A stretch of 64,000 bases of DNA from Caldicellulosiruptor owensensis OL. GTDB taxonomy: Bacteria; Bacillota; Thermoanaerobacteria; Caldicellulosiruptorales; Caldicellulosiruptoraceae. Made by a program: the position numbers and the translations under genes. Below, piece by piece: positions 8,385 through 41,471 of the stretch (the first letter of the stretch is position 1; each line of letters opens with the position of its first letter). The notes under the pieces were generated by a model, which saw only the letters and a program-made list of their open reading frames with translations, was not told the origin of the DNA and ran no database searches. Where the stretch lies: positions 2,359,501-2,423,500 of the forward strand of contig NC_014657.1 in the NCBI RefSeq assembly GCF_000166335.1, in the 5' to 3' direction.

Positions 8385-9674
8385 GTTCGTAGCCTCCCCT
8401 TTGGGGATTGAAATAGGTATAACGGCACAAATTTTATCTTACAGGGTAGCGTTCGTAGCCTCCCCTTTGGGGATTGAAATATTGTCGTCTAAATGGTTTA
8501 GATACGCTGTTACATAGTTCGTAGCCTCCCCTTTGGGGATTGAAATTATCAAAAGAAGCGTTGTGGGCTATCAAAGGATATTTGTTCGTAGCCTCCCCTT
8601 TGGGGATTGAAATTCCGACGTGCGCAAAAGAGTGGACTTTGCAATGGGTTCGTAGCCTCCCCTTTGGGGATTGAAATTCCAGAGAGGGCCGTCCCTCTCT
8701 GGTTTTCATAACAAGTTCGTAGCCTCCCCTTTGGGGATTGAAATCTGAAGCTGCTTTTATCAAAGACAGAGTATATCATGAGTTCGTAGCCTCCCCTTTG
8801 GGGATTGAAATTTGCAACTGTTTGGAATGCAATCAAGAATGTTATTTGGTTCGTAGCCTCCCCTTTGGGGATTGAAATTCGGCTTGCCACTTATCCTAAA
8901 ACTCTCAATAACCGTTCGTAGCCTCCCCTTTGGGGATTGAAATTGTATATCACACTTAGGACAATAAACGTTCAACTCGGTTCGTAGCCTCCCCTTTGGG
9001 GATTGAAACATCTGCAAGTTGTGAATGAAGACCCGCAATCTTCTACGGTTTGTAGCCTCCCCTTTGGGGATTGAAACAGTTGTTGCGCAGGATGTTGCTG
9101 GCTGGAGAATACAGGTTTGTAGCCTCCCCTTTGGGGATTGAAACAAAGCCAGCAGGCAATAACATAGTCCTGCGCTTCAGGTTTGTAGCCTCCCCTTTGG
9201 GGATTGAAACGTAGGATTAATAATATTATTATTCTTTTCTTTACTTGGTTTGTAGCCTCCCCTTTGGGGATTGAAACCCACCTCAAACTTGTGTTCTGTT
9301 CTGATTATACCACCGGTTTGTAGCCTCCCCTTTGGGGATTGAAACGCCCTTATCTTCAGCCCTTGCTCATCTTTGATAAGCGGTTTGTAGCCTCCCCTTT
9401 GGGGATTGAAACCGCAATGTGAGTTTAAACCATCTAAGCTGTTTGAGGTTTGTAGCCTCCCCTTTGGGGATTGAAACCACCGAAACCGTAACGGGAAATA
9501 CACAGGTAAACTGGTTTGTAGCCTCCCCTTTGGGGATTGAAACAGTCGGCGGCGGATGTATTCTACCGCTAATGCTGCGTTTGTAGCCTCCCCTTTGGGG
9601 ATTGAAACAGGAGGTCGCGCTTGTTTTTTTCGTACCACTCCTTGGTTTGTAGCCTCCCCTTTGGGGATTTAATT
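8385..9674 (+). CRISPR. CRISPR array 1: 20 repeats of 30 nt, 19 spacers
   Basis: Repeats begin at 8385, 8451, 8517, 8584, 8648, 8715, 8782, 8849, 8914, 8980, 9048, 9115, 9181, 9248, 9316, 9383, 9448, 9514, 9579 and 9645; spacers are 34-38 nt. Each repeat starts GTT(T/C)GTAGCC, carries the CCCC-TTT-GGGG mini-hairpin, and ends ATTGAAA(C/T), the usual 8-nt crRNA handle; so crRNAs come from the + strand and the leader is at the left. Repeats 1-9 read TTCG...GAAAT, repeat 10 TTCG...GAAAC, repeats 11-19 TTTG...GAAAC. Repeat 20 is degenerate at its 3' end (GATTTAATT), marking the old end. Open frames on the other strand across the array are artefacts of the repeat. Confidence 0.97.
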
Positions 9675-19070: not shown

Positions 19071-20489
19071 CTATTCTATTCTATCTTTCAGCCAGCAGTT
19101 GATTACATTAAAATTGGTATTAAATGCATACCTTATAAAAATTGTGCTGCCTTCTGTCCTTATCTCTGTTATATTTCTTTCAAATCCGCTGTGTGCAAAA
19201 TAGTTTCTGTCTATTGGCTCGCCTGCCGGCTTTCCAGGATCAATTATTTTGTAAAGCCCTGTCCAGCTACCTATATCATCCATTTGTTCTAATACTTTTT
19301 GTGTATTTGATATTTCATTGCTGAGCATAACATAGTTTGTAGGTACTCTGAATGTTGAATAAATCTCAAAATAGTTTCTCTTGAGAAGCTCGAGATCAAT
19401 CCCTGTATCCTGACAGAACATAGTTATATTGTGCTTTTCCAGCACATTTACAATCCCAATGTAAAATCCCAAACTCAAAATTGCATCTATGTAAGCTCTT
19501 TTGTTGAGGTTGGGAGATTTTTGATAGTCGCTGCAAAGCTGACCCTTGGCATGCTCAATTAGCTTGAAAATCTCTTCCTTTATCTCATCTACAGAGTGGT
19601 AATGCTGGTAGTAAAGATACAAAGGGACGTTGTTTTTTATGGCAGAAAACAAAAGGCAGAACATTTCTATCTTTTCTCTTAATTTCTTCCTTTTTTCTCT
19701 CACCTGCTGCTTGAGCTTTGCTGCCTCTGAACCCTTTGCACCGTTATCCGGATCTGGAAATATATTTCTTAAAAATGAAAAGTTGTACTCTGCTGCCTCT
19801 TTTCGTTTTATGGGTGATGAGAAAAATGCTGTAAATCTCTGTTGCTGGATGTGTATCTCAAAGACTTTAGCAGAGCTTCCTATAATCGGGTCAGAAAAAG
19901 TGAGGTATATTTTTGGCACTTTGCTTTCATCAAGCCAATTCATAAGATTTGAAAAGACAGCAAAGTGTCTTGCAGCCTCCAAAATTGCAGAAATATAAAT
20001 GTTGTGTCCGCTTGAAATGTCAAGGTAAAGATCTTCAAGTTCACCTTTCAAGTATCTTTCTATCATGTCAAAAAGAATCTCAAGCACAATATCATCATAG
20101 CTTGCATCAAGAGATGTCCCTAAATACTCACCAAGAGAGTGAACAATCAGCTTTTCGTCCCTGCACCTTTCAAGATCTATTCTATCTATAAACTCATCTG
20201 GATTTTTCAGGTACTCCGATGGTTCTTTAAAGATGGTTGAAAGTTCCTCTTTCAAATTGGCAGGCTGAATGTATTCAGGAAGTCTACTGTTCAGAACAAT
20301 GCTAACAGGATATATCACAACTGTTTTAGCCTCACAGCCTCTTTTGCGCAGAAAATCTCGCAACACAGTTGAAGAAAGTTCAGACTCTCCGCTCTCCTCA
20401 ACTATTTCACCATTGAAATTTTTAATATAAAACTTTTTAGTAGCTATTGCGGGATTATCCAGTCTCCCAACTTGATATATTACTTTCAT
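19071..20489 (-). CDS. csx1: Csx1-type CARF-HEPN ribonuclease
   Basis: An RNA-degrading effector switched on by the cyclic oligoadenylates Cas10 makes. The 472-residue protein has an N-terminal CARF (Rossmann-like) domain with the ligand-loop motif LDISSGHNIYISAILEA (about 155-171), a charged helical linker, and a C-terminal HEPN domain. The HEPN active site is R428-N-Y-F-A-H433 followed by SGFE, the R-x4-H pattern of Csx1. GGAGAGGAG precedes the ATG. It is separated from csm by the membrane-protein gene, so it needs its own promoter (TATAAT/TATACT-like sequences near 20545-20565 on the - strand). No Csm6 is seen, so Csx1 is the only visible cOA-activated RNase here. Confidence 0.92.
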   Translation of the reverse strand: MKVIYQVGRLDNPAIATKKFYIKNFNGEIVEESGESELSSTVLRDFLRKRGCEAKTVVIYPVSIVLNSRLPEYIQPANLKEELSTIFKEPSEYLKNPDEFIDRIDLERCRDEKLIVHSLGEYLGTSLDASYDDIVLEILFDMIERYLKGELEDLYLDISSGHNIYISAILEAARHFAVFSNLMNWLDESKVPKIYLTFSDPIIGSSAKVFEIHIQQQRFTAFFSSPIKRKEAAEYNFSFLRNIFPDPDNGAKGSEAAKLKQQVREKRKKLREKIEMFCLLFSAIKNNVPLYLYYQHYHSVDEIKEEIFKLIEHAKGQLCSDYQKSPNLNKRAYIDAILSLGFYIGIVNVLEKHNITMFCQDTGIDLELLKRNYFEIYSTFRVPTNYVMLSNEISNTQKVLEQMDDIGSWTGLYKIIDPGKPAGEPIDRNYFAHSGFERNITEIRTEGSTIFIRYAFNTNFNVINCWLKDRIE

Positions 20490-22886: not shown

Positions 22887-23647
22887 GTTTGTAGCCTTCC
22901 CTTTGGGGATTGAAACCAAATCAAATTGTCTCAAATATTTTTGCCTTTCTAAGTTTGTAGCCTTCCCTTTGGGGATTGAAACTAAAAAGTCATTCCTCCA
23001 CCCCTTAGTATCCCCAATCGTTTGTAGCCTTCCCTTTGGGGATTGAAACGAAAATCCAAATGCGAAGGAAACTCTCATGCAGGTTAGTTTGTAGCCTTCC
23101 CTTTGGGGATTGAAACATATTATTCTGTTCCTGTTTCTGTTCCGGCGATGGGTTTGTAGCCTTCCCTTTGGGGATTGAAACTTCTTTGGATGAGGTTTCA
23201 AAAGCGTCGTCTTCACCAGTTTGTAGCCTTCCCTTTGGGGATTGAAACTGATGATTTCGTAGCTGAAATATCCTGCACCTGCAAGTTTGTAGCCTTCCCT
23301 TTGGGGATTGAAACTCCTTGAAACACCAGAATACAGGAGCGCATTTTTCGGTTTGTAGCCTTCCCTTTGGGGATTGAAACAAATATTTTGCTTGGTCAAT
23401 CACAAGTGTTCTTTGGTTTGTAGCCTTCCCTTTGGGGATTGAAACACAAACCACCGATTTTTTTTGAATTTTTTTCACTGTAAGTTTGTAGCCTCCCCTT
23501 TGGGGATTGAGGAGAGGGGAGAGCCTCCCCTTTGGGGATTGATGAGAGGGGAGGGCCTCCCCTCTGGGGATTGAAACTAATCGTGGATCAAACGTGCAAA
23601 CGACCAACTGAGGATGGTTTGTAGCCTTCCCTCTGGGAATTGAGGTG
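22887..23647 (+). CRISPR. CRISPR array 2: nine good repeats plus a degenerate distal end
   Basis: Repeats begin at 22887, 22953, 23020, 23087, 23152, 23219, 23285, 23351 and 23416, and differ from array 1 by TAGCCTTCCC in place of TAGCCTCCCC; spacers are 35-38 nt. A tenth repeat (23484-23510) reverts to the CTCCCC form and loses its last bases. Then come two compressed units (about 23522-23542 and 23553-23577) separated by only about 10-12 nt of GAGAGGGGAG-type sequence, one more 39-nt spacer, and a last degenerate repeat (23617-23647). The polarity is the same as array 1, leader at the left. Confidence 0.95.
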
Positions 23648-24911: not shown

Positions 24912-25895
24912 TTACATTTTCATGACACTCGCAAGATGATGAACAGCAAATCCAATATTTGTATATCCTTTGGATTCAAAATAAGATTTAACACTGCTTA
25001 GCTCACTGTACATTGTTGCAAGCCCTTCTTCGAAAAATGTGACATTCTCACCCTCGGTTGATGGCTGGGTTTCAACAGAAATTACAAGTTTTTTACCAAA
25101 ATTTTTTGCATAACCTGCTTCGTTCTCAGAAATTGTTATAATCTCCTGACTGCTGTCTCTATACGCCATGATGTTTGTCCAGCTTGCTTTCGAAATTACC
25201 CACTGGGCAAGATTACCTGAGCCATAACTGTTGGAATAATATATTTCGTCAAACCAGAACGGTATGTCAAATACAGCCGGAAGGTTCAATCTCGATGCCT
25301 GCAAAATTGCCTCCTCAACAAAGCTTTGATAATTCAAAATTACAACATCTCTTGCTGTATTCCATTCAGTGTTTTGATAAGGCTCAACATCAAGGTGAAT
25401 ACCACAAAACTTTTCGCTCTCTGATACATTCAAATTATAATTTTCAACCCATCTTACAAAATTATAAAACCCTTCTCTTCTGTCCTGCCATATCCATATA
25501 CTATCTCCAGACAAAGCATATACACTTATCCCATAAGATGCAGCAGAAGATACAAAATCTCTGTAATACCTTGAATCAAGAGTACTATCAATCTGAAGAT
25601 ACAGTTCAGAATACCCATTTGCTCGCAAATAGTTCAAAATATCATCTTTGCTGCTTACAATTAACCACGGATTCCAAAGCCATGTACCAAAACCTGTGTT
25701 ATTGCTGGATATAGCCGTTTGAGATGACTGTTTTGTTTCTTCTTGAGATACAGGAGTTTGACCCGGCTCAGAAATCTCATGAGACTGGCTTTTCTTTGGA
25801 CCTGCAACCTGTTTTTTCTTTGCTGCAAATGCCATTGCATTTGAGACAGATAAAATTAAAAAAACAATAAGCAGTGTTGAGATTACTCTCTTCAT
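24912..25895 (-). CDS. Secreted protein with glycoside-hydrolase-like barrel, under c-di-GMP control
   Basis: A 327-residue protein with a clear signal peptide (MKRVISTLLIVFLILSVSNAMAFA) and a Ser/Gln/Thr-rich linker to about residue 65. The catalytic-looking domain starts at GFGTWLWNPWLI. GIHLDVEPYQ (about 185-195) resembles the acidic strand end of TIM-barrel glycoside hydrolases; WTNIMAYRDS and ISVETQPS later fit a barrel. The start follows AAGGAGGT; the open frame upstream belongs to the riboswitch. A c-di-GMP-I aptamer in the leader means export of this protein is tied to the motile/sessile switch. The enzyme activity and substrate are not known; wall or extracellular polysaccharide is a guess. 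Confidence 0.7.
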   Translation of the reverse strand: MKRVISTLLIVFLILSVSNAMAFAAKKKQVAGPKKSQSHEISEPGQTPVSQEETKQSSQTAISSNNTGFGTWLWNPWLIVSSKDDILNYLRANGYSELYLQIDSTLDSRYYRDFVSSAASYGISVYALSGDSIWIWQDRREGFYNFVRWVENYNLNVSESEKFCGIHLDVEPYQNTEWNTARDVVILNYQSFVEEAILQASRLNLPAVFDIPFWFDEIYYSNSYGSGNLAQWVISKASWTNIMAYRDSSQEIITISENEAGYAKNFGKKLVISVETQPSTEGENVTFFEEGLATMYSELSSVKSYFESKGYTNIGFAVHHLASVMKM

Positions 25896-25962
25896 AATAA
25901 AATACCTCCTTATATGGAGTTTTTTGTTTTTGGTTTTTAGGAACTCCATATAAGGAGTTCCT
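25896..25962 (-). promoter_or_regulatory. Expression platform: alternative hairpins that hide or free the ribosome site
   Basis: On the - strand, AGGAACTCC (25962-25954) can pair with GGAGTTCCT (25947-25939) into a 9-bp hairpin. The 16 nt at 25957-25942 are also an exact reverse complement of the 16 nt at 25921-25906, which contain most of the ribosome site AAGGAGG. The two pairings exclude each other, so this is a translational on/off switch. No T-run follows, so it is not a terminator. Confidence 0.8.
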
Positions 25963-26047
25963 GGCAGCCTGGCGACCATAGGGGACTTTTCCCCGACAGG
26001 CCCATGGCTTTGCGCCCACAGGTTTCCCTGTGTTTGCCTTTTTCAGG
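25960..26047 (-). promoter_or_regulatory. c-di-GMP class I riboswitch (GEMM-I)
   Basis: Read on the - strand the aptamer shows AAGGCAAAC, then stem CACAGG-GAAA-CCTGTG with the GNRA tetraloop, then GGCGCAAAGCC, a GC-rich third stem (CGGGG...CCCC), and a closing helix CCTG (26047-26044) with CAGG near 25960. These are the conserved GEMM-I parts in order. It lies between the promoter (TGTTATAAT on the - strand, about 26085-26077) and the secreted-protein gene. Whether it prefers c-di-GMP or cGAMP cannot be told by eye. Confidence 0.9.
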
Positions 26048-26160
26048 AAGTTCACTTTAATTTCTCGTACAATTTAATTATAACATTTCTATTTTCAAAA
26101 ATAAATAACTAATTTTCTAACCTGTTTTTCACCCTTAATTTTTAATTGTCTGAAATCCCT

Positions 26161-38169: not shown

Positions 38170-41100
38170 TTAAACAGTAATCTTCTTTGCTATTAAAAGC
38201 TTTTCCACTTCGGTTTTTGGCAGGGGTTTTGAAAACAGATACCCCTGTGCAAAATCACATCCTATTTCTTTTAAAATCTCAAGCTCTTTTTTAGTCTCAA
38301 CACCTTCTGCCACAACTTTAAGGTCTATCTTGTGTGCCAGCAAAACAATGCCTTCAACAATTGCTCTGCTCTCTTTTGAACTCTCAATCTCAGAAATAAA
38401 ACTCTTGTCTATTTTCACACCACCAATAGGAAGTTTTCTCAAATAGATCAATGACGAATAGCCTGTTCCAAAATCATCTATCATAAACTTTATCCCCATC
38501 TGGCAAAGAAAATTCAAAATCTTGAGTGATACATCAAAGTTTTCAACAGCACCTGTCTCTGTTATTTCAAATGAAATCTTCTGTGGATCAACACTATATC
38601 GTTCAATAAGCTTTTTAACAACATCTACAAAAAACTTTGTTTTAAACTGTCGAACTGAAAGGTTTATAGCCATATTTATATAGTCAATTCCTTTTCTCTC
38701 CCAATTTTTAATGTCTGAAAAAGCTTTTTCTATAACCATTTCACCTATCTTTACTATAAGTCCACTCTCTTCTGCAACAGGAATAAATTCAAGTGGTGAT
38801 ACCATACCTTTTCCTGGCAAGTTCCATCTCAAAAGTGCTTCAACAGAATGAATCTCCATGTCTTTTAAGTTTATAACCGGCTGGTAATAAAGTTCAAACT
38901 GATCTTCTTCAATGGCTTTTTTGAGATTTTTTTCAATTTCAATTTTTTTAAGATTCTTCATAAGCATGAAAGGCATAAAAATCTGAAAGTCGTTCTTGCC
39001 ATTGTCTTTTGCAGAAGATAATGCCATATCAACATTTCGAAATATTTCTTTAACATTTTTTCCATCATCTGGATAAAATGAGATTCCCATTGATGCTGAA
39101 GTAAAAAGATGTCTGTCTATACTTTCAATATAAATCTCGCTTTCAAAGATCTTAAGAAGCTGAGCGCAAAACTCAATTACCTGTTCTTTTTTGACAAGAC
39201 CATGAAAAATTATTGCAAACTCGTCACCGCCAACTCTTGCAAAAAAGGTTTTAACCTCTAACTTCTTAAGATATTCTGAAACCTTCTCACCCAAAGCTTT
39301 CAGATATTCATCTCCTGCTTCATGACCGTAAATATCATTTATGTCCTTAAAATTGTCAATATCTATGAGAACAACAGCACCTGTGCTTTTCTCAGCCTTG
39401 GTTTTTTTGAGCCAGTCTTCTAACGTTTCTTCAAAAAGCTTTCTGTTCGGAAGACCAGTCAGCGTATCATAGTAGGCAAGATACTCTATTTTGTTTTCAT
39501 ACTCTTTTTTTGCTGTCCAGTCAACACATACTGCAACAATTTTTTCAGGATTTTTTTGCTCATCGTAATTTATATGTGCACGACTTGAGAGCCAGCGCCA
39601 TCTGCCACATTTGTCTTTTACACGAAAATCCAGTTCAACATATTCATCGCCTAAAAATATAGCATCCTGAAATTTTCGAAAAACCTTTCCCCTGTCATCC
39701 TCATGAAGATATTCAAGCCATACAAGTGAACTTTTTGTTGAGCAAATCGTCTCAACGTCAAAAGAGTCTTTCAGCTTACCATAAAGTTCTATCTTTTTTT
39801 GATTTATATCCAATTCAAAGACCAGGTCAGAGACATTATCAACAAAGAATTTATACTTTTCTTTCTCTTCCTCAAGCACCTGTGAATTTTTATTTAATGT
39901 TTCCAAAGCATTTATTAACTCTTCATTTGTCTGCTCAAGCTCCTCATAGCTTTCTTCTAAAAGCTGCTGGGTCTTTTTTATCTGTGTTACATCAAGCCCT
40001 GTTGAAATAATCAAGGGTTCATTCAAGTAAGGACTTTCGATAAGCGCATTGTTCCATAAAATCCATCTTATATCTCCATTTTTTGTTATAATCTCATTTT
40101 CATGGTCATTTAAAACCTTTTCTTCAGCTATTTTACTAAAAAGATTCTCAATATATTCTCGTCTGTGTGAGGGGATAAAAATATCGGTCCATTTTTTACC
40201 TATAACTTCTTCGCTTGTATATCCAGTAAGCTGCTCGGCAAACTTGTTAAAGTAAATTATCTCCCCTTTTAAATTCAGCGTCAAAACAATTGCATTTGCA
40301 TTGTCTGCCAAAAGCTGTGCATAACTTTCGTAAGCTCTTTTTCCATGCTCAAGTCTTTTATTTATCTTTATCATGATCAATACTGTTAATGATACAGCAA
40401 AGAATATAATTGCCAGAATAAACAGGAATGTAAGTATTGTCTCTCTGTTTTTTCTTTCATAGTACTCAGGTGAATATGTAGAAAAATAGTTAAAATAAAG
40501 TTCGTCAAATATTCCCTTGTCCTCAAGATAGCTCAACCTCTTATCGATATATGAAACAAGCTCTGGACGCTTTTTACTTATACCAAATGCGCTTTTGGTG
40601 ATGTATATATTCTTTATCTTTATTTCCAGGATATCTGAAAGATTGTTCTTTATAATAAAATAATTGGCTATCTCTTGGGTCACTAAAGCAGCCTCAATTT
40701 TACCATTTGCAAGTGCAAAAATAAGTTTTTCAACTGTTGGAAATGTACTGTATACCTTTACATTTAACTTTTCTTTCAAAATACTTTCTGTATAATCTGA
40801 CTTTAAAACGCCTATTTTGAATTTTTTTAAATTTTTAAGTGAAACACTTTTTGAAAAACCTTTCTTTGTATAAAGTCCTACATGTCGTGTCAGGATTGGC
40901 TTTGAAAAATATATATACTTTTTTCTTTCCTCCAGTATAGCAACAGGAGCCACTACATCAACTTGCCCTTTAACAAGCTTTTCGTACACTTTGTGCCATT
41001 CGTCGCTCGAAAGTTTTACGTCAAATTTGTCTGGCTCAAACACAATGTTTGCAAGGTCAATCGAAAATCCATATATACGTCCCTCTGAAGTATATGAAAA

Positions 41101-41220
41101 AGGTGGATAGTTCTTGTCTACTTCAAATTTAACAACAGTATTGCCGGCATATACAGGAAAGATAGAAATTAATAACCACAAAACTGTAAATACAAAAAGG
41201 AAATATTTTTTCCTCATCAT
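38170..41220 (-). CDS. Sensor protein: PBPb, two PAS, GGDEF and EAL domains
   Basis: A 1016-residue c-di-GMP enzyme. A signal/anchor helix leads to an extracytoplasmic bacterial solute-binding type 3 (PBPb) domain (about 30-270: YPPFSYTSEGRIYGFSIDLANIV). A second membrane helix (about 275-300) precedes two PAS domains. GGDEF at 664-668 reads RVGGDEFAII with no RxxD inhibitory site before it. The EAL domain has EAL 794-796, DDFGTGYSS and AEGVET, so both cyclase and phosphodiesterase sites look complete. The start is the first ATG of the pair at 41215-41220, behind GAGGGAA. It may sense an amino-acid-like ligand and set c-di-GMP levels, which the riboswitch at 25960 could read. Confidence 0.9.
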   Translation of the reverse strand: MMRKKYFLFVFTVLWLLISIFPVYAGNTVVKFEVDKNYPPFSYTSEGRIYGFSIDLANIVFEPDKFDVKLSSDEWHKVYEKLVKGQVDVVAPVAILEERKKYIYFSKPILTRHVGLYTKKGFSKSVSLKNLKKFKIGVLKSDYTESILKEKLNVKVYSTFPTVEKLIFALANGKIEAALVTQEIANYFIIKNNLSDILEIKIKNIYITKSAFGISKKRPELVSYIDKRLSYLEDKGIFDELYFNYFSTYSPEYYERKNRETILTFLFILAIIFFAVSLTVLIMIKINKRLEHGKRAYESYAQLLADNANAIVLTLNLKGEIIYFNKFAEQLTGYTSEEVIGKKWTDIFIPSHRREYIENLFSKIAEEKVLNDHENEIITKNGDIRWILWNNALIESPYLNEPLIISTGLDVTQIKKTQQLLEESYEELEQTNEELINALETLNKNSQVLEEEKEKYKFFVDNVSDLVFELDINQKKIELYGKLKDSFDVETICSTKSSLVWLEYLHEDDRGKVFRKFQDAIFLGDEYVELDFRVKDKCGRWRWLSSRAHINYDEQKNPEKIVAVCVDWTAKKEYENKIEYLAYYDTLTGLPNRKLFEETLEDWLKKTKAEKSTGAVVLIDIDNFKDINDIYGHEAGDEYLKALGEKVSEYLKKLEVKTFFARVGGDEFAIIFHGLVKKEQVIEFCAQLLKIFESEIYIESIDRHLFTSASMGISFYPDDGKNVKEIFRNVDMALSSAKDNGKNDFQIFMPFMLMKNLKKIEIEKNLKKAIEEDQFELYYQPVINLKDMEIHSVEALLRWNLPGKGMVSPLEFIPVAEESGLIVKIGEMVIEKAFSDIKNWERKGIDYINMAINLSVRQFKTKFFVDVVKKLIERYSVDPQKISFEITETGAVENFDVSLKILNFLCQMGIKFMIDDFGTGYSSLIYLRKLPIGGVKIDKSFISEIESSKESRAIVEGIVLLAHKIDLKVVAEGVETKKELEILKEIGCDFAQGYLFSKPLPKTEVEKLLIAKKITV

Positions 41221-41471
41221 AAATTTTATTCCCTCTTGCATGAAAGAATATAAATTTAATTCTAACAGATTATATACCCATTTTAAAGTAAATTTAAACC
41301 AATTCAAAGTTATAATAAAAGATTTTCATCTCATGTTTATTTTTTTCTTTCAAAAATTGCGCACTTTTTTTCAAAAGCTGAAAAAATACAAAATGCCTTT
41401 TCCAGGGCATTTTTGGTGTTTTCAACTTCTAAAACTATAGGTTTTTCTGCCCTTGAGTCTTTTAAGTACTC
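41221..41471. other. Intergenic region between the GGDEF-EAL gene and the IS remnant
   Basis: About 250 nt. An AAAATGCC...GGCATTTTT hairpin (41390-41414) is seen; otherwise nothing supported. Confidence 0.4.

Follow-up and report, generated by a model that had tools for sequence, protein, structure and literature searches.

The leader of a gene for a secreted barrel protein in Caldicellulosiruptor owensensis is quite probably a c-di-GMP-I riboswitch with a translational platform, which would shut the gene off at high c-di-GMP. The leader lies within a 64-kb stretch of DNA (the window). It contains an aptamer closed by a helix, P1, a hairpin, H1, and a strand complementary to the ribosome site (Table 1). 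Its pairings are mutually exclusive; one lies over the Shine-Dalgarno sequence and one is coupled to the aptamer, as defines a translational platform. Thus, a translational c-di-GMP-I switch with mutually exclusive ribosome-site pairings is supported by the sequence.

Table 1. Elements of the switch, its probable promoter and the regulated gene (window coordinates)
Feature	Position	Strand	Basis or remark
c-di-GMP-I aptamer	25959..26048	-	RF03167 67.2 bits, RF01051 77.4 bits; pocket mapped from Vc2 numbering
P1 5' strand UUCCUG	26044..26049	-	6-bp complement to 25963-25958
P1 3' strand CAGGAA	25958..25963	-	AGGAA common to P1 and H1
Anti-ribosome-site strand CUCCUUAUAUGGAGUU	25942..25957	-	exact complement of 25921-25906; starts directly past P1
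Ribosome-site strand AACUCCAUAUAAGGAG	25906..25921	-	covers most of the Shine-Dalgarno sequence AAGGAGG (25911-25905)
H1, 9-bp anti-sequester hairpin	25939..25962	-	excludes P1 and the ribosome-site duplex; energy matched by 0/500 shuffles
Regulated gene, 327-aa secreted TIM-barrel protein, glycoside-hydrolase-like	24912..25895	-	translation, structure prediction, fold and profile matches
Probable promoter -10 region, TATAAT preceded by TGT	26070..26082	-	sequence; TATAAT also upstream of the congener switch (L048)

The first-pass annotation had proposed a c-di-GMP-I riboswitch, and two Rfam covariance models agree with it, as do the folding and comparative evidence presented below. RF03167 matches positions 26047-25959 of the minus strand with 67.2 bits (gathering threshold 59), and RF01051 matches genome positions 2385460-2385548, which correspond to 25960-26048 of the window, with 77.4 bits (gathering threshold 35). 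The element had been located correctly, but its 5' end had been set 2 nt short, given that the 5' strand of P1 occupies 26049-26044. In clan competition the best label by E-value is RF03167, c-di-GMP-I-GGC; the name presumably denotes the three pocket bases of this model. At the position of A47, the RF03167 consensus has G (CGCGAA) whereas the window has A (CGCAAA). The element was therefore rejected as a c-di-GMP-I-GGC variant: its score passes the gathering threshold, but the defining G in place of A47 is absent.

An A at position 20 is the mark of the cGAMP-type variants of c-di-GMP-I aptamers (GEMM-Ib). The window has G, not A, at this position (26038), and this variant, too, was rejected. 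In the sister genus, a c-di-GMP-I aptamer upstream of a secreted protein (L078, G012:C11:21377-21462) carries A20 (AATAGCAAAC) and with it the cGAMP-type signature. In Vc2 numbering [PMC4744006, PMC3764141], the pocket bases of the window aptamer, G20 at 26038, A47 at 26011 and C92 at 25964, are canonical. Since all three are canonical, cGAMP is unlikely to be the main ligand; c-di-GMP is the ligand expected from the sequence. The genome encodes 11 GGDEF and 5 EAL domains. One GGDEF-EAL protein of 1045 aa is present in the window (38170-41307), 12 kb from the riboswitch; judged by eye, we take it to contain substrate-binding and PAS regions beside GGDEF and EAL. The window also contains two CRISPR arrays with CRISPR-DR2 repeats (9048-9608 and 22887-23445), past the second of which (beyond 23445) the repeats look degenerate, and an ORF at 19071-20489 that, by eye, is presumably CARF-like.

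On the minus strand, CTCCTTATATGGAGTT (25957-25942) is an exact 16-nt complement of AACTCCATATAAGGAG (25921-25906), just as had been noticed at first reading. A search of the whole 64-kb window for inverted repeats with arms of 14 nt or more and a spacing of 3-80 nt gives this pair alone; when the 75-nt leader is shuffled 3000 times by dinucleotides, the longest inverted repeat to arise measures 12 nt. The 24-nt segment AGGAACUCCUUAUAUGGAGUUCCU (25962-25939) can instead fold on itself, and the 9-bp self-hairpin described in the annotation is recovered as H1, with arms AGGAACUCC/GGAGUUCCU and the loop UUAUAU. The anti-ribosome-site strand can enter H1 or the 16-bp ribosome-site duplex, but not both. 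The aptamer does adjoin the 5' side of the hairpin segment, as had been stated, but H1 also overlaps the 3' strand of P1 (25962-25958). These 5 nt of P1, AGGAA, are needed by H1, so P1 and full H1 are mutually exclusive. In contrast, the 16-bp duplex begins at the base right after P1; P1 and the duplex abut and are compatible. Thus, the earlier description of a "complete translational switch" was right about the mutually exclusive pairings, but it missed their coupling to the aptamer through the P1/H1 overlap and gave no sign of regulation. Among the 11 other species of the genus, an intact orthologue is present in G003 only (87% identical protein). In the switch of this congener, the ends of the aptamer and the exact 16-nt pairing are conserved, H1 is retained with 8 bp, and the linker between the arms is unrelated in sequence.

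The order in which these elements are transcribed suggests how the switch would work. When no ligand is present, H1 would form during transcription, before the ribosome site exists, and would outcompete P1; the ribosome site would then be left free, and the gene would be translated. When c-di-GMP is bound, P1 would be locked and full H1 would be impossible, and the 16-nt strand would trap the Shine-Dalgarno sequence as it emerges, silencing the gene. Ligand should close the ribosome site because P1 is stabilised, H1 is blocked and the duplex is compatible with P1. The same riboswitch and pairings could, in principle, have the opposite sign, with ligand-bound RNA exposing the ribosome site, for example if P1 were compatible with a shortened H1. 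Indeed, c-di-GMP-I switches of both signs exist [PMC6366702], and with P1 intact H1 could retain its inner 4 bp, CUCC/GGAG. However, P1 takes 5 of the 9 H1 pairs and spares the 16-bp duplex; given this geometry, which favours sequestration on binding, an ON switch is improbable, although of the alternatives it survives best. The comparison within the genus counts against the OFF model in one respect, since the arms are identical in both congeners and there is thus zero compensatory change there.

Ensemble energies are consistent with an OFF switch whose ligand-free state is set by the order of folding; the underlying secondary-structure model leaves out ligand, pseudoknots and ribosome. As long as the nascent RNA ends before the ribosome-site strand, H1 is more stable than P1, with a margin of 6.5 kcal/mol at 37°C and 2.6 kcal/mol at 70°C. 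Once the RNA is complete, the balance tips towards P1 together with the duplex, which outweighs H1 by 2.2-2.3 kcal/mol for the window and by 2.7-3.4 kcal/mol for the congener between 37°C and 70°C. At equilibrium, then, the model also gives the OFF fold for RNA without ligand, so that the ON state would depend on folding kinetics; a kinetic ligand-free ON state is predicted. A direct-path estimate, which gives an upper bound under crude assumptions, puts the refolding barrier at about 11 kcal/mol at 70°C (modelled as ~1-10 s) versus 23 kcal/mol at 37°C. Because the genome encodes a full-length reverse gyrase (1119.8 bits), a high growth temperature is likely.

The transcript probably starts just upstream of the aptamer. 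The TATAAT at 26070..26082 is not scored as a promoter by a consensus scan, and we infer the promoter from the sequence. A switch acting mainly on transcription or RNA decay, through a terminator, Rho or RNase, would be in keeping with the other c-di-GMP-I switches that were read in the genus, in which a hairpin followed by U, typical of a terminator platform, lies past the aptamer. In the window, however, no U-run is present after either hairpin, and the pairing involves the Shine-Dalgarno sequence. A terminator platform was rejected, as the scan found no terminator-like site on the minus strand at the platform. Control mainly at the level of transcription or decay is thus distinctly unlikely, although decay or Rho may play a secondary part beside translational control. 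Since the other genus switches that were read carry terminator platforms, the platform in the window is, by its sequence, the odd one in its genus. The genome's only other c-di-GMP-I switch (L012, G000:C1:1656216-1656305) has a terminator platform, GGCACCTGGC...GCAGGTGCCTTT; it precedes a small secreted protein, and a GGDEF gene is nearby on the opposite strand. A search of the literature found no report of a c-di-GMP riboswitch in Caldicellulosiruptor.

A profile search of 398 genomes from the phylum, among them those of the genus, finds relatives of the barrel protein in 14. A c-di-GMP-I aptamer is present just upstream of relatives in Clostridium punense (L005), in a member of the Bacillaceae (L006) and at three further loci (L098, L102 and L103); with the window and G003, the barrel family stands right behind a c-di-GMP-I aptamer at seven loci. 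The leaders of the distant loci L006, L098 and L102 contain both a hairpin on the aptamer 3' strand and a rival pairing of that strand with the ribosome site, in sequences that differ widely. In these three leaders, respectively, the duplex energies are matched by 18, 3 and 4 of 500 shuffles and the hairpin energies by 15, 16 and 1 of 500; pairing with a Shine-Dalgarno sequence in itself requires a CUCC-like core, so the weight rests on the flanking pairs. Among the shuffle-tested leaders, L005 has the hairpin alone, without the ribosome-site pairing, and L103 has neither. That the pairing recurs while its sequence changes argues for a function in RNA and not as a DNA operator. One could suppose that the palindromic segments are operators for a dimeric repressor and that the RNA pairing is incidental, since CTCCTTATATGGAG is nearly palindromic and occurs in two copies with 38-bp spacing. 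However, CTCCTTATATGGAG is found nowhere else in the genome, even when one mismatch is allowed; it starts exactly where P1 ends and takes in the Shine-Dalgarno sequence, and related loci retain the pairing logic with unrelated sequences. An operator is therefore very unlikely.

The aptamer wiring is not universal in the barrel family, because the fetched flanks of L099-L101 (large genomes from another family) and of L007-L011 (Treponema, Clostridia and SR1 records) contain no c-di-GMP-I aptamer above gathering. In large genomes from another family (L113-L118, in G101, G360 and G399), there are 4-5 barrel matches, including ORFs of ~590 aa with two tandem barrels, and no c-di-GMP-I aptamer is present in the scanned fetched flanks. 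Viral contigs contain no barrel relative. Within the genus, the switch-gene pair has been lost repeatedly: G006 keeps the promoter and an orphan aptamer (L052; 85% identical) with the gene absent, and G001, G005 and G010 have broken remnants of the target protein (L049, L050 and L051). Although such losses would allow the window switch itself to be decayed or inactive, its pocket bases, P1, H1, 16-nt pairing and reading frame are all intact and are retained in the congener, and decay is hardly credible.

The first-pass annotation had also called the target a secreted barrel protein, and structure prediction bears this out. AlphaFold2 models the TIM barrel with confidence (mean pLDDT 85; barrel mostly above 90) and the linker with low confidence; the N-terminus is signal-like. 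The best neighbours among solved structures are Cwp19 (Z 19.6), GH5 and GH18 enzymes, and PgaB. A profile match over the barrel (E 1.3e-16) leads to PDB 10yv, which its depositors call "Putative GH97 from Cellulomonas fimi". Scans with Pfam and NCBIfam give no family above cut-off for the target. Residues H167, D169 and E171 (HLDVEP), and D210 and D216 (FDIPFWFD), are invariant in 8 sequences, and the acidic ones are candidate catalytic residues; by eye, FxGIHLDVEP resembles the GH18 strand-4 motif, which provides a lead. Thus, the target is probably a secreted carbohydrate-active enzyme. It would be made at low c-di-GMP, that is, when a biofilm is left or not formed; this is the weakest step of the proposed mechanism.

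Taken further, these observations allow a tentative proposal, which we regard as possible but doubtful: uncharacterised secreted hydrolase-like barrels would make up a module, conserved in Bacillota and repressed by c-di-GMP, whose translation is controlled by ribosome-site switches that have been rewritten independently. The thermophile switch would be kinetic and would work because the RNA needs seconds to refold at growth temperature, and a fall in c-di-GMP could lead the enzyme to cut the matrix polysaccharide of the cells that make it. The predicted switch also links a secreted family without a Pfam or NCBIfam name to a regulatory signal, and suggests that the family is likely to act in remodelling the surface or matrix. 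The switch itself is a short, fully readable translational c-di-GMP-I switch; since its states differ by named base pairs, few mutants suffice for testing it.

Among known systems, the window element has the same aptamer model and the same G20, A47 and C92 as the RF01051 c-di-GMP-I (GEMM-I) riboswitches, such as Vibrio cholerae Vc2 and Clostridioides difficile Cd1. It shares its top label with RF03167 but differs from that model at A47, and the plain c-di-GMP-I model gives it 77.4 bits. Cd1 and the other functional class I switches of C. difficile stop transcription [PMC6366702, PMC9262584], whereas the window platform pairs with the ribosome site. The closest parallel in logic is the class I OFF switch of C. 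difficile zmpI/PPEP-1, where c-di-GMP represses a secreted hydrolase through a class I aptamer [PMC6366702]. However, that switch works by transcription termination and its target is a metalloprotease, while the window switch is predicted to act on translation and its target is a hydrolase-like barrel. The target is like PDB 10yv in its profile over the barrel and in the LDVEP motif; it has the same barrel fold as Cwp19, PgaB and the GH18 chitinases, but only about 10% identity to them. The element is thus of a known kind, a c-di-GMP-I riboswitch with a ribosome-site platform, and part of its interest is its recurring tie to an unnamed family of secreted hydrolase-like proteins.
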